Positions 4,758 to 12,977 of a DNA stretch of 64,000 bases are shown piece after piece. Source of the DNA: an uncultured Pseudomonadota bacterium (GTDB lineage Bacteria; Pseudomonadota; Alphaproteobacteria; UBA9219). Made by a program: the position numbers and the translations under genes. The stretch is taken from the NCBI GenBank assembly GCA_903919315.1, contig CAIXHP010000030.1:62001-126000 (forward strand). The letters are read 5' to 3'. Each line of letters starts with the position of its first letter. Positions within the stretch are counted from its first letter, which is position 1. The notes beneath the pieces were generated by a model. It did not search any database and was not told the origin of the DNA. It saw nothing but the letters and a program-made list of their open reading frames with translations.

Positions 4758-4778
4758 CCAAAAAGCACAGAGGACTGA

Positions 4779-6068
4779 ATGACATGGCTTTACCTTCCGC
4801 CAGACGCGATGACGCGCGCGGCGAAAAGCGAAGCCTGCGTGGACTTTCCCTCTGTGCCGGAGCCGGAGGACTTGATCTCGGCCTCCACATCGCCGCACAC
4901 GCCTATCGAACTGTGGGTTACGTCGAGCGGGACGCCTACGCTGCGGCCACTCTCGTGGCGCGGATGGAAGACCAGGGGCTGGATCGCGCACCTGTCTGGG
5001 ACAACGTTGCAACCTTCGATGGCCGAGCGTGGCGTGGCATCGTGGATCTCGTCCATGGTGGCTATCCATGCCAGCCCTTCAGCGTCGCCGGACGCAAGCT
5101 CGGCGACAAAGACCCGCGACATCTCTGGCCGCACATCGCCCGCATCGTCAGCGAGGTCGAACCGCCTCTCTGCTTCTTTGAAAATGTCGGCGGACATCTA
5201 CGACTGGGGTTCGAACAAGTCCACGATGACCTTCGATCAATGGGTTATGGCGTTAAGGCGGGCTTGTTTACAGCGGAGGAAGTCGGCGCGCCGCACAAGC
5301 GCGAACGGCTGTTCATCCTGGCTTACGCCAAGGGCGCAGGAGAGCAGCGAAAAACAGGAGACGTTCTTGAAGCGCAACGGCGACAGGTCAGCGCGTTGCT
5401 CCGGCTCGCTCACGGCGCAGACAGTTCTCTGGCCGACAGCTACGGCGATGGATGCAAAAGTGAAATACGCCCGCGCTCCGGAAAAAATGATCCGCAAGGA
5501 TCGCCGCAACGTACTGCGGACGCCAGGACTGGCGGAGACGGTTCTGCAACCGGAATCCTATCCGTACAGCAAAGAGGATCTGGAACTGGCGCTGCAGGGA
5601 AAACCCTACCGGACGACTCGCGTCCATTGGCCGACACCGCGCGCACAGGAACCAGGCAGCACAAGCTCGGATCACGGTCTCAGCCTCAACGAGGTGGGCA
5701 AGATGTGGTCGACGCCGCGCACATGCTCCGGAAAAAGATCAAGCGGGTCGAACCGTTCGGAACTGACGAAGGCTTGGTCGACGCCGACTGCGCGGGATTG
5801 GAAGGACGGCGTGCTGATCGACAACAAGACGGCGACACGGAGCAACCTTTCCCGCCAGGCCCCTCGGACGAAGCTGGCTGGCAGCGATTGCTCCTCCGCG
5901 CCCCGTACCTTGAACCCGCTGTTCGTGGAGGCTCTGATGGGCTGGCCCATCGGGTGGACAGATTGCGCCTCTGCGGCAACGGGGTTGTCCCGCTGGCTGC
6001 GGCTTATGCGTTCTACACTCTCTCAATTGAAGCTGAACTCTATCCCTGAGCAACCATGCCTGATTTAA
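4779..6068 (+). CDS. Candidate overlapping gene in the +2 frame of the methyltransferase (WPTPxARD-repeat protein)
   Basis: An uninterrupted 429-codon frame starts five bases before the methyltransferase ATG, behind the same AGAGGA ribosome site, and ends inside the next gene by 13 bases. Its product contains the tryptophan-threonine-proline repeats WPTATAMD, WPTPRAQE, WSTPRTCS and WSTPTARDWKDG at roughly residues 217, 284, 310 and 333, then LNPLFVEALMGWPIGWTD. Proteins of this look are often annotated in phages as hypothetical. Part of the conservation must be a shadow of the methyltransferase (for example HASPS mirrors the PCQPFS motif). From about 5440 to 5860, however, the codon choice and amino-acid make-up of this frame look more protein-like than the methyltransferase frame. 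Expression is unproven. Confidence 0.4.
   Translation: MTWLYLPPDAMTRAAKSEACVDFPSVPEPEDLISASTSPHTPIELWVTSSGTPTLRPLSWRGWKTRGWIAHLSGTTLQPSMAERGVASWISSMVAIHASPSASPDASSATKTRDISGRTSPASSARSNRLSASLKMSADIYDWGSNKSTMTFDQWVMALRRACLQRRKSARRTSANGCSSWLTPRAQESSEKQETFLKRNGDRSARCSGSLTAQTVLWPTATAMDAKVKYARAPEKMIRKDRRNVLRTPGLAETVLQPESYPYSKEDLELALQGKPYRTTRVHWPTPRAQEPGSTSSDHGLSLNEVGKMWSTPRTCSGKRSSGSNRSELTKAWSTPTARDWKDGVLIDNKTATRSNLSRQAPRTKLAGSDCSSAPRTLNPLFVEALMGWPIGWTDCASAATGLSRWLRLMRSTLSQLKLNSIPEQPCLI
4784..6049 (+). CDS. DNA C5-cytosine methyltransferase
   Basis: This 421-residue enzyme transfers a methyl group from S-adenosylmethionine to C5 of cytosine in DNA. Motif I (LSLCAGAGGLDLGL, about 21-34), the acidic motif II (YVERD), motif IV with catalytic Cys96 (GYPCQPFS), motif VI (FFENVGG) and motif VIII (APHKRERLFILAY) are in order, and the C-terminal GNGVVPLAAAYAF is motif X. 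The region from about 185 to 365, where the target-recognition domain should be, is low complexity with repeated LADS/LADT-G words. Over exactly this region the +2 frame encodes a second recognisable repeat protein (see 4779-6068). The start is ATG 4784, with AGAGGA upstream shared by both frames. It belongs to the phage modification block. Confidence 0.9.
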   Translation: MALPSARRDDARGEKRSLRGLSLCAGAGGLDLGLHIAAHAYRTVGYVERDAYAAATLVARMEDQGLDRAPVWDNVATFDGRAWRGIVDLVHGGYPCQPFSVAGRKLGDKDPRHLWPHIARIVSEVEPPLCFFENVGGHLRLGFEQVHDDLRSMGYGVKAGLFTAEEVGAPHKRERLFILAYAKGAGEQRKTGDVLEAQRRQVSALLRLAHGADSSLADSYGDGCKSEIRPRSGKNDPQGSPQRTADARTGGDGSATGILSVQQRGSGTGAAGKTLPDDSRPLADTARTGTRQHKLGSRSQPQRGGQDVVDAAHMLRKKIKRVEPFGTDEGLVDADCAGLEGRRADRQQDGDTEQPFPPGPSDEAGWQRLLLRAPYLEPAVRGGSDGLAHRVDRLRLCGNGVVPLAAAYAFYTLSIEAELYP

Positions 6069-7282
6069 AAACCCGCATGGCCGAGCGCATTGAGCTTTGG
6101 CCGGTGGAAAGGCTCGTTCCCTACGACAAAAATCCGCGCACCCATTCGGCGGAGCAGATCGCCCAGATTGCCGCCAGCATCACAGAATTCGGCTTTCTCA
6201 ATCCTATTCTGGTCGACACGGCGTCTGGGATCATCGCCGGTCATGGAAGGTTGCAGGCCGCGAAACAGTTGGCGCTCTCTGTCGTTCCCGTTGTTGTTCT
6301 TGATCACCTGAGCGAAGCGCAGAAACGCGCTTATGTGATCGCTGACAACAAACTGGCGTTGAACGCCGGATGGGACGAGACTCTTTTGCGTTCCGAGCTT
6401 GAGGCTCTGGAAGAAGAAGGCTTCGATCTGCCGCTAGTCGGTTTCTCTGACGAAGAGCTAGCCGATCTGCTAGCTGATCCTGACGCTGCATCCGGCAACA
6501 CAGACGAGGATGCGGTGCCGGAGGTTCCCGCCGAACCCGTCACGAAACCTGGCGACCTTTATATTCTCGACAACCATCGTTTGCTGTGCGGCGATAGCAC
6601 CGTTCTGGCCAATGTCGAACGAGTCCTCGACGGTGCGCTGGCCGACATGGTGTTCACGGATCCGCCTTACAATGTCGATTACGGCAACACCGCCAAGGAC
6701 AAGATGCGCGGCAACAACCGCACCATCATGAACGACAATCTCGGCGACGGGTTCGAACAGTTTCTCTACGACGCTTGCGTCAACATGCTGGCTGTCTGTA
6801 AGGGCGCGATCTATATCTGCATGTCGTCGAGCGAGTTGCACACACTGCAAAAAGCGTTCGTCGCCGCTGGCGGCAAATGGTCGACATTTGTCATCTGGGC
6901 AAAGAACACCTTTACGTTGGGTCGGTCTGATTATCAGCGTCAGTACGAACCGATCCTCTATGGCTGGAAACAAGGGATCGACCATTTCTGGTGCGGCGCG
7001 CGCGATCAAGGCGATGTGTGGTTCGTCAACAAACCTCGCGTCAACGACCTGCACCCGACCATGAAGCCTGTCGAGCTGGTGGAACGCGCCGTGCGCAACA
7101 GCAGCAAGAGCCGTGACATTGTTCTCGATTGCTTCGGCGGCTCCGGTACCACGCTGATCGCTTGTGAAAAAACCGGACGGCAGGCACGGTTGATCGAGCT
7201 TGATCCGAAATATTGCGATGTGATTGTTCAACGTTGGGAGGAGTTTACAGGAAAGAAGGCGGAAAGATTGCCAACCTGTTAA
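6056..7282 (+). CDS. ParB-domain/DNA N-methyltransferase fusion
   Basis: The 408-residue protein has a ParB/Srx-like nuclease-fold domain at about 10-105 (LVPYDKNPRTHS, then GIIAGHGRLQAAK) joined to an N4/N6-type DNA methyltransferase. The catalytic DPPY is at 202-205 and the S-adenosylmethionine loop DCFGGSGTT at about 358-366, the order of beta-class amino-methyltransferases. Such fusions are widespread in phages of alphaproteobacteria and probably protect phage DNA from host restriction. Target specificity is not visible. It overlaps the end of the +2 frame at 6068 and lies just after the C5 methyltransferase, so the phage carries two modification enzymes in tandem. Confidence 0.9.
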   Translation: MPDLKTRMAERIELWPVERLVPYDKNPRTHSAEQIAQIAASITEFGFLNPILVDTASGIIAGHGRLQAAKQLALSVVPVVVLDHLSEAQKRAYVIADNKLALNAGWDETLLRSELEALEEEGFDLPLVGFSDEELADLLADPDAASGNTDEDAVPEVPAEPVTKPGDLYILDNHRLLCGDSTVLANVERVLDGALADMVFTDPPYNVDYGNTAKDKMRGNNRTIMNDNLGDGFEQFLYDACVNMLAVCKGAIYICMSSSELHTLQKAFVAAGGKWSTFVIWAKNTFTLGRSDYQRQYEPILYGWKQGIDHFWCGARDQGDVWFVNKPRVNDLHPTMKPVELVERAVRNSSKSRDIVLDCFGGSGTTLIACEKTGRQARLIELDPKYCDVIVQRWEEFTGKKAERLPTC

Positions 7283-10554: not shown

Positions 10555-11079
10555 ATGGGAATGAATGTCACCGCCTACGCGCGGCATCGCGGCGTCAGCC
10601 ACGTTGCGGTTTTGAAGGCGCTCAAAGCCGGACGCATCGTCAAGGAAGCTGACGGAACCATCGATCCAGCCAAGGCCGATGCCGCATGGGAACAGAACAC
10701 CAGTCAAGCGCAGCAGCGGAAGCCCAATCATAAAGAGGCCAGCGATGAACGGCAGACGGAACCTTCCGTCAGCGGCACCGCCAGCATCGGCGGCGGGCCG
10801 AGCTATGCCCAGAGTCGTGCCATCAAGGAAGCCTATCTCGCGCGGCTTGCCAAACTTGAATATGAAGAAAAATCGGGCGCGGTGGTTCGTGCCGACAACG
10901 TCAAGGTGGCGTGGTTCAACATCCTGCGCGTCCTCCGTGACCGCGTACTAAATCTGCCGGATCGGCTGGCGCCTGTATTGGCGGCGGAAACAGATCCGAA
11001 GAAAATTCGGGAATTTCTGGATTCCGAGCTTCGCCAAATTCTGACCGACGCAGCCGAAAGTTCAGCGACACAAGATTAA
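10555..11079 (+). CDS. Phage terminase small subunit (Nu1-like)
   Basis: The 174-residue product has an N-terminal helix-turn-helix that matches lambda Nu1-type small subunits (VTAYARHRGVSHVAVLKALKAGRI, then IDPAKADAAW), a disordered linker at 45-80, and a C-terminal helical part (LARLAKLEYEEKSGAVVRAD and a long helix) that mediates assembly and contact with the large subunit. It recognises phage DNA for packaging. A second in-frame ATG at 10561 is an alternative start; no strong ribosome site marks either. Its stop overlaps the terL start as TAATG. Confidence 0.85.
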   Translation: MGMNVTAYARHRGVSHVAVLKALKAGRIVKEADGTIDPAKADAAWEQNTSQAQQRKPNHKEASDERQTEPSVSGTASIGGGPSYAQSRAIKEAYLARLAKLEYEEKSGAVVRADNVKVAWFNILRVLRDRVLNLPDRLAPVLAAETDPKKIREFLDSELRQILTDAAESSATQD

Positions 11080-12977
11080 TGGATCCGCTCCAGCAATGCT
11101 TGACGCACGCCGCGCTGGCGCTGCGGCCAGACCCGCGTCTGTCGGTATCGGAATGGGCGGATGCACACCGGCAACTGTCCCAGACGGCATCGGGGGAACC
11201 CGGCCCGTGGCGAACGGAACGCACACCCTATCTACGGGCAATCATGGATTGCCTCTCGCCGAGTAATCCGGTCGAGAAGATCGTGTTCATGAAAGGCGCG
11301 CAGATCGGCGGCACCGAAGCCGGTAACAACTGGATCGGCTATGTCATTCATCATGCGCCAGGGCCGATGCTGGCGGTGCAACCGACCGTCGAGATGGCCA
11401 AACGTTGGTCGAAACAGCGCGTGGCATCGCTAATCGACAGCACGCCGGTATTGCGGGAACGAGTCAAAGAAGCCCGCAGCCGCGACAGCGGCAACACGGT
11501 GCAGAGCAAAGAGTTTCCAGGCGGCATTCTCGTGATGACCGGCGCCAACAGCGCCGTTGGCTTACGTTCGATGCCGGTGCGATACCTGTTCTTAGACGAA
11601 GTCGACGCCTACGATTTCGATGTGGACGGCGAAGGCGATCCGGTGGCGCTGGCCAGCCAGCGCACGATCACTTTTGCCAATCGAAAGATCTTTCTGGTCT
11701 CGACTCCAACTATTCAAGGGTTTAGCCGGATCGAGCTGGAATATGAGCAATCCGACCGCCGCCGCTGGTGGGTGCCGTGTCCGGAGTGTGACGAATTCCA
11801 GGTTATCGAGGAAAAGAACCTGCGCTGGCCGAAAGACAGGCCGGAAGAAGCGCTTTATTACTGCGTTCATTGCGGCGCCGGCATCTCCAGCCACCGCAAG
11901 GCGTGGATGAACTGTCGTGGCGAATGGCGTGCCGAACGTCCGGATAGTCCGGTTGCTGGCTTTTGGCTTTCCGGCCTTAACAGCCCCTGGCTCAGTTGGG
12001 CGCAGATCGCCGAGCGCAAAGCCGCCGCCAAGGATGACTCGGCCATGAAGGTCTATGTCAACACCATCGAGGCGCGGACATGGACGGAATCCGGCGAAGC
12101 GCCGGAATGGCAACGGCTTTATGACCGGCGCGAGGCGTATCGCATCGGCCAAGTGCCGGAAGGTGGATTGTTTCTTACGGCTGGCGTTGATGTTCAGAAA
12201 GATCGTCTTGAAATTGAAATCGTCGCATGGGGGCGCGACCGCGAAAGCTGGTCTGTTGACTATCGCGTTCTGGCTGGCGATCCGGTCAAGCCGGATGTCT
12301 GGTCAGCGCTCGACGATGTGCTGGCGGAAGCATTCCCTCACGAAAGCGGAACAAACCTTATCATCCTGAAACTGGCCATCGACACCGGCTACGCGACGCA
12401 AGAAGTTTACGATTGGGTACGGCGGCACCCGTCAGACCGTGTCATCGCCATTAAGGGCGTCGAACGCCTTGGTGCGGCCATAGGATCGCCGGCGCATATG
12501 GATGTCATGCAAAGCGGCAAACGCAAACGCCGCGGCCTTATGGTCTGGCCGGTCGGATCGTCCTTCTGCAAGTCGGAGCTGTACGGCACGCTACGCAAGG
12601 ATCGTCCGACCGACGAGCAGATTCAAGCGGGAGAAAAATATCCGTCGGGCTTTTGCCACTTCCCTAAGCACGGAGAGGAATATTTCAAGCAACTGACGGC
12701 GGAACGCCTTGTGACGGTCAAGGATCGGCGTGGCTTTCCGCACCGCGAATGGCGCAAGCTGCGCGAACGCAATGAGGCTTTGGATTGCCGCGTCTACGCC
12801 CGCGCGGCAGCCTCGGCAGTCGGCATCGACCGCTTTACGGATCTTGTTTGGCAAAAATTTGAACGTGCTCTGGGACAGACGCCTGCGCCACAGGCCGCTG
12901 CGCCGGAAGTAAAAACTGCATCCGCAACCACGCCGCAGCCCATGCAGCGGCGCGTGATAAGGAGCCGCTATATTTAA
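11079..12977 (+). CDS. terL: Phage terminase large subunit (lambda gpA family)
   Basis: This 632-residue motor cuts concatemeric phage DNA and pumps it into the prohead using ATP. A Walker A-like loop (MKGAQIGGTE, 71-80), Walker B (FLDEVDAY, about 171-178) and a zinc-binding cluster (CPEC, then CVHC around 230-265) are in place. The nuclease half starts with GVDVQKDRLEIEIVAWG. Length and order fit the lambda gpA branch, in agreement with the lambda-like head genes that follow. Its stop codon overlaps the stop of the reverse-strand HEPN-like gene. Confidence 0.95.
   Translation: MDPLQQCLTHAALALRPDPRLSVSEWADAHRQLSQTASGEPGPWRTERTPYLRAIMDCLSPSNPVEKIVFMKGAQIGGTEAGNNWIGYVIHHAPGPMLAVQPTVEMAKRWSKQRVASLIDSTPVLRERVKEARSRDSGNTVQSKEFPGGILVMTGANSAVGLRSMPVRYLFLDEVDAYDFDVDGEGDPVALASQRTITFANRKIFLVSTPTIQGFSRIELEYEQSDRRRWWVPCPECDEFQVIEEKNLRWPKDRPEEALYYCVHCGAGISSHRKAWMNCRGEWRAERPDSPVAGFWLSGLNSPWLSWAQIAERKAAAKDDSAMKVYVNTIEARTWTESGEAPEWQRLYDRREAYRIGQVPEGGLFLTAGVDVQKDRLEIEIVAWGRDRESWSVDYRVLAGDPVKPDVWSALDDVLAEAFPHESGTNLIILKLAIDTGYATQEVYDWVRRHPSDRVIAIKGVERLGAAIGSPAHMDVMQSGKRKRRGLMVWPVGSSFCKSELYGTLRKDRPTDEQIQAGEKYPSGFCHFPKHGEEYFKQLTAERLVTVKDRRGFPHREWRKLRERNEALDCRVYARAAASAVGIDRFTDLVWQKFERALGQTPAPQAAAPEVKTASATTPQPMQRRVIRSRYI

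Follow-up and report, generated by a model that had tools for sequence, protein, structure and literature searches.

A phage C5 methyltransferase predicted to be assembled from two interleaved reading frames

The locus and its two open frames

The window, that is, the whole 64,000-nucleotide stretch of DNA analysed here, comes from a 2.4 Mb genome of an uncultured alphaproteobacterium and carries two long open reading frames superimposed on the same DNA (Table 1). One of them, alpha, is the methyltransferase (MTase) frame; it holds motifs I, IV, VI and VIII in order, with invariant P95-C96-Q97, E133-N134-V135 and H171, and its PF00145 match is confined to motifs I-VIII. The other, beta, lies one nucleotide downstream of the MTase frame and is called the +1 frame. 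A preliminary description of the DNA had both frames open from starts five bases apart behind one ribosome site, and the catalytic motifs (I, PCQ, ENV, VIII and X) in the MTase frame; on both points it was accurate, the two ATGs being 5 nt apart behind a single AGAGGA. The WPTP/WSTP repeats it noticed in the second frame are present too, as five modules (WLTP-WPTA-WPTP-WSTP-WSTP) instead of the four it counted, and the frame does not end at LNPLFVEALMGWPIGWTD, which is followed by 34 more beta residues.

Table 1. Features of the two-frame methyltransferase locus (positions in the window)
Feature	Positions	Strand	Basis or remark
Shared Shine-Dalgarno-like AGAGGA, both starts	4769-4774	+	Sequence; 4 nt to beta ATG, 9 nt to alpha ATG
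Beta ORF, 429 aa: WLYLP N-terminus, drifting stretch over I-VIII, five modules, motif IX	4779-6068	+	Open frame
Alpha ORF, 421 aa: motifs I-VIII and X joined by an unconstrained LADS linker	4784-6049	+	PF00145, E=1.4e-31
Beta N-terminal WLYLP	4785-4799	+	Conserved as W-[LI]-[YHF]-x-P immediately ahead of motif I in the majority of the window's family
Alpha motif I (LSLCAGAGGLDLG)	4844-4882	+	Sequence
Alpha motif IV, catalytic PCQ	5066-5074	+	Sequence
Alpha motif VI, ENV	5180-5188	+	Sequence
Alpha motif VIII (GAPHKRERLF); coding signal moves to the +1 frame right after	5285-5314	+	Sequence and substitutions
Beta module 1 (WLTPRAQESSEK...)	5319-5429	+	
Beta module 2 (WPTATAMDAKVK...)	5430-5627	+	
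Beta module 3 (WPTPRAQEPGSTSSDHG...)	5628-5705	+	
Beta module 4 (WSTPRTCSGKRSSG...)	5706-5774	+	
Beta module 5 (WSTPTARDWKDG...)	5775-5909	+	
Beta motif IX (LNPLFVEALMGWPIGWTD), over alpha motif X leader	5910-5963	+	Beta profile best placed at motif IX of M.HhaI; in-frame counterpart in single-chain relatives
Alpha motif X leader (EPAVRGGSDGLAHRVDRLRL), under constraint in either frame	5912-5971	+	Low substitution rates; separate in-frame counterpart in L201/L202/L203/L170
Alpha motif X (CGNGVVPLAAAYAF), including GNGVVP	5972-6013	+	Amino-acid selection back in the MTase frame here

As read from the ORF sequences, the locus belongs to the early region of a prophage, in which a terminase (11079-12977) is followed by portal, protease, capsid and tail genes. 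Its nearest named homologues are in alphaproteobacterial MAGs, and the source genome holds further matches to the second-frame protein at C37:30397, C43:3839, C30:10260 and C23:49505; the copy on C37 (L012) is without the first module of the window's array. A second phage methylase, of the N4/N6 type with a ParB-like N-terminal domain (PF01555, PF02195), adjoins at 6056-7282, its ORF beginning 12 nt ahead of the end of the beta frame. On the minus strand, 3' of the prophage structural genes, the ORF sequences between 32539 and 42729 include apparent Type III restriction and modification genes, two MBL-fold proteins and a SNF2-type helicase, and the region looks like a defence island; it was set aside as unrelated to the MTase locus.

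Amino-acid selection is divided between the frames

The frame under selection was read from the codon positions at which 55 independent pairs of loci differ, the third position of the +1 frame being position 1 of the MTase frame. Over motifs I-VIII, differences at MTase positions 1, 2 and 3 number 1134, 711 and 2262, and the +1 reading drifts freely. Over the middle the same counts are 1780, 868 and 789 (16,699 aligned sites), over motif IX 187, 69 and 68, and over motif X 148, 115 and 342. The amino-acid signal changes frame between domains, as the preliminary description had suspected; the switch points lie at the end of motif VIII and at the GWTD/DRL overlap, and position 3 is again the variable one from the GNG of motif X onwards.

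Selection in the middle acts on the +1 frame, and all that is required of the MTase frame is openness: read in the MTase frame, the LADS region gives no indication that its amino acids are selected, and neutral evolution of the +1 frame, earlier named as a possible refutation, is not what is found, the changes falling at +1-frame third positions instead. Alpha is under selection over I-VIII and X, beta over the modules and motif IX; at the beta N-terminal WLYLP, too, substitutions favour the beta frame (bins -184/-176). Conservation in the segment shared by motif IX and the motif X leader exceeds that of the remaining middle, and only these approximately 18 codons look constrained in both frames.

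What the second-frame protein is

Searches of Pfam and NCBIfam with beta matched no model; the protein matches PHROG 27243 (unknown function) and PHROG 1008 ('DNA methyltransferase'). Its nature is suggested by relatives in which everything is in one frame. The single-chain L201 reads motifs I-VIII, WPTP modules, LNPDWVECLMGFPIGWTD and then NRAKRLKxLGNAV; L209 has the same order with LSPDWVECLMNYPLGWTD at motif IX, and in L150, L155 and L156 the in-frame stretch from VIII to X contains LLPTP modules and motif IX. In chains of the L201 type the motif IX segment and the motif X leader (EPPRVATGIKNRAKRL) are consecutive, while the window reads the same DNA in two frames. A profile of the beta motif IX, placed on M.HhaI, fits best at residues 271-292, which is motif IX; the next place scores more than 18 bits lower, and the match is reached by 0.9% of shuffles.

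Beta corresponds to the part that alpha lacks relative to the single-chain enzymes: in the window motif IX is read only in the +1 frame, and the complete C5 set is present only in the alpha and beta pair. Since the single-chain relatives carry the same sequence in frame, and in view of the profile match on M.HhaI, the +1 protein is, on sequence comparison, the putative target-recognition and motif IX part of the same enzyme. Searched against the PDB, the IX-X profile and the beta-module profile retrieved no C5 MTase by sequence. Modelled on its own by AlphaFold, beta has only a low-confidence structure (pLDDT 58); for the single-chain L201 the catalytic domain matches M.HhaI and the module/recognition region is unresolved.

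Both frames are kept open

A +1 codon ending in T before AA, AG or GA creates a stop in the MTase frame. Counting the sites of the middle with a synonymous T, this base precedes AA, AG and GA in 0/551, 1/331 and 0/448 cases in the open loci, against 9-31% before other dinucleotides, which makes 1/1330 overall as compared to about a quarter elsewhere. Low-GC loci whose +1 frame is open show the avoidance again (0/186), as do 71 loci taken from bacterial genomes, every one of which has an open second frame (16/1995 vs 1076/7690). The third frame has from 1 to 23 stops per locus in the middle. Reciprocally, over motifs I-VIII stops are avoided in the +1 frame (0/164 vs 468/1786, and 0/1194 vs 52/756). 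Stops are avoided, then, across the family, both in the linker of alpha and in the N-terminal part of beta. When the beta protein and its own codon usage are held fixed, the MTase frame of the window stays open over the middle in 109 of 20000 simulations; the reverse simulation over motifs I-VIII is not significant for the window alone (4768/20000), and across the family both openness tests are overwhelming. Among loci whose start is clear, most have start codons that overlap or are at most a few nucleotides apart, predominantly as NTGTGG, and the second frame has a conserved N-terminus resembling WLYxP. Stops being avoided in both frames, the +1 frame should be neither a shadow nor one stage of a single frameshifted product, and two full-length polypeptides are predicted.

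Programmed frameshifting, by +1 after motif VIII and back at GWTD/DRL, would join the selected segments into one chain, and both switch points sit exactly where the canonical order VIII-TRD-IX-X, as displayed by the single-chain relatives, needs them. I regard it as unlikely all the same, for it requires two efficient shifts in opposite directions, offers no reason for avoiding stops in a frame that carries no protein, and leaves unaccounted for the conserved beta N-terminus, the overlapping start codons and those loci where motif X, too, is on beta. Slightly less probable still is overprinting, namely a separate protein (e.g. anti-restriction or toxin-like) laid over a complete MTase with LADS as its own recognition domain; the conserved beta N-terminus and the openness of both full-length frames would suit it, but the LADS region is without sign of amino-acid selection in the MTase frame and beta carries a motif IX that in relatives is in frame with the MTase motifs. 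Between the alternatives originally put forward, the use of both frames is retained, and overprinting by an unrelated protein is not, given that selection is split by domain and beta is the apparent recognition and motif IX part.

Spread of the layout and other partitions

The same frame relation occurs in phages of Paenibacillus, Synechococcus, Cylindrospermopsis, Acinetobacter, Pseudomonas, Klebsiella, Salmonella, Rhodobacter, Xanthomonas, Komagataeibacter, Gordonia and Mycobacterium, whose GC content ranges from about 40 to 70 per cent. Annotators have kept one of the frames, the other, or both: Paenibacillus phage Diva has the second frame labelled as an internal gene, and in Pseudomonas phage phPA-G it alone is annotated.

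Frames were mapped by profile HMMs, a strict-pattern scan having missed many loci. Among about 215 loci, duplicate contigs included and most of them found via similarity to the +1 frame, motif IX is in the +1 frame and motif X in the MTase frame in 170; all motifs share one frame in 9; and both IX and X are in the +1 frame in 25 (M.AquI-like, duplicates included), with a large ORF that, where examined, ends right behind motif VIII. When loci were seeded with the MTase, all but one of 26 had the layout of the window. In the actinophages L120-L122 the modules are in the +1 frame with IX and X in the MTase frame. A case in point for the M.AquI-like partition is phi-BT1 gp9.1 (L340, AJ550940, 1321-2300), annotated as a possibly inactive methylase: it is the I-VIII part, behind which an unannotated +1 frame contains modules, IX and X.

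L150, L155, L156 and L338 are single-chain with in-frame modules and have extra +1 modules after motif VIII, and L180 has two motif IX-like copies in the second frame at 1792-2178 (NPALLEWLMGY and NPTWIEWLMGFPIGW). In L116 an apparent indel joins the N-terminal part of the MTase to the beta frame; in L117 the MTase is cut off before motif X and runs into ParB-type methylase sequence, an apparent recombination.

Phages with the +1 protein and no intact MTase frame had been proposed as a search target, and loci of this kind exist. L017-L020, L100, L247 and L262-L264 have 4-14 stops in the MTase frame, in the middle only, and an open +1 frame; alpha being unreadable there, its continuity is not universally needed. 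L018-L020, L100, L247 and L262-L264 share GATGARGGYGTSGCATGG, a ribosome site with an MTase-frame ATG about 145 nt before motif X, which is found in 0/233 open loci; the internal start of the L018-type clade reads GATGAGGGTGTGGCATG. These loci are candidates for a three-polypeptide MTase in which alpha is split again; as they probably form a single clade, this is to be taken as a lead and not as proof. The opposite case, homologues of the window's layout with an intact MTase and a +1 frame full of stops over the middle, numbers zero in the stop tables. As a control, nine records were drawn from a spread sample of MTase hits: five are canonical phage C5 MTases, which have an in-frame motif IX and whose +1 frame contains 15-22 stops; the other four have +1 modules or a module frame one nucleotide downstream of the MTase frame.

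That the database family is a mere shadow of MTase codon usage, with the MTase frame alone coding, is hardly credible: the conserved look of the +1 reading over I-VIII is indeed imposed by the MTase, yet the substitutions in the middle, the open +1 frame of the stop-bearing loci and the presence of the +1 sequence in frame in single-chain MTases, against the stops that canonical enzymes have there, all speak against it.

Recognition modules

The modules, of WPTPxARD type, measure some 25-65 residues, most start with W-x-T-P/A/V, and their number and order vary between loci, L100 having about nine. Arrays differ between phages by whole modules, and modules are mixed: related ones occur in phages of very different GC content, e.g. 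W[AG]TPNTMD in L004, L021 and L184. Because clustering over-merges the modules (cluster A has 141 members), the shuffling was judged from the arrays themselves instead of the cluster counts. Each module probably recognises a sequence of its own, the analogy being with multispecific MTases of phages.

The proposed enzyme

The reading that I favour, with a probability of roughly 0.87, is that of a heteromeric, two-subunit C5 MTase of the M.EcoHK31I kind, produced from interleaved frames. Ribosomes loaded at one Shine-Dalgarno sequence would begin at either of two adjacent start codons. From the MTase frame they would make alpha, with catalytic motifs I-VIII, a hydrophilic linker of unconstrained sequence and motif X; from the +1 frame, beta, with its short conserved N-terminus, a drifting stretch across the catalytic region of alpha, the module array and motif IX. 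Beta would be equivalent to the small domain found between motifs VIII and X in ordinary C5 MTases, and is expected to dock on alpha and complete the enzyme. From one phage to another the arrays differ by whole modules, so that the enzyme probably has several target sequences for methylation and protects phage DNA from host restriction.

On a wider scale, I consider it likely that these loci represent a common and largely unrecognised class of phage C5 MTases, in which exchangeable +1-frame modules lie across the linker of the catalytic subunit, the drifting segments are reciprocal and one ribosome site is shared. The modules would spread as two-frame DNA cassettes, and some lineages would have re-split the catalytic subunit and others gone to a single frame. 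In bacteria and phages, long overlapping genes are a matter of debate, since little functional evidence backs them; the comparative signal in this case consists of two open frames with amino-acid selection divided by domain. If true, this gives many phage proteins now listed as 'hypothetical' a function (PHROG 27243 and its relatives), accounts for MTases that seem truncated or inactive, such as phi-BT1 gp9.1, and describes a modular anti-restriction specificity system. Annotation that keeps one of two overlapping ORFs would lose half an enzyme.

Comparison with known systems

Phage-borne multispecific C5 MTases of the SPR/phi3T type have tandem recognition modules in one frame. The window shares with them the tandem target-recognition modules and the phage setting; in the window, however, the array occupies the second frame, and multispecificity is a prediction. 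To M.AquI the likeness is that of two polypeptides, the window differing in that motif X is in the frame of the large subunit and both frames are full length. The M.AquI type proper, where the small subunit combines recognition, IX and X, is seen in L008/Noelle, L170, L198, L202, L203 and phi-BT1 (L340).

M.EaeI is a two-polypeptide C5 MTase like M.EcoHK31I, and the small gene of the latter is reportedly nested in another frame, a finding attributed to Lee et al. in 1995. In M.EcoHK31I, motifs I-VIII and X are on one polypeptide and IX on another, and the predicted target-recognition domain has been placed on the large subunit (PMC3404938). An out-of-frame insertion within phage methylases is also known from the ShiLan domain, an HNH insertion that leaves no stops in the host frame (PMC11855218). 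The likeness there is a second-frame protein inside a phage methylase; ShiLan, however, is a homing nuclease insertion, whereas the second-frame protein of the window would be a functional part of the methylase. The records of PHROG 27243 and PHROG 1008 do not describe a specificity part that is out of frame with its catalytic partner, and a literature search found no paper describing this layout in phages.

It is with M.EcoHK31I that the correspondence is closest, the large subunit having I-VIII and X and the small one IX in both. The window departs from it in that the recognition modules are on beta, the corresponding region of alpha being a drifting linker; in that beta starts at the ribosome site of alpha and spans the whole alpha gene; and in being located in phages, with no restriction enzyme seen directly adjoining and with modules that vary between phages. 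I class the arrangement in the window as a widespread variant of the M.EcoHK31I kind.
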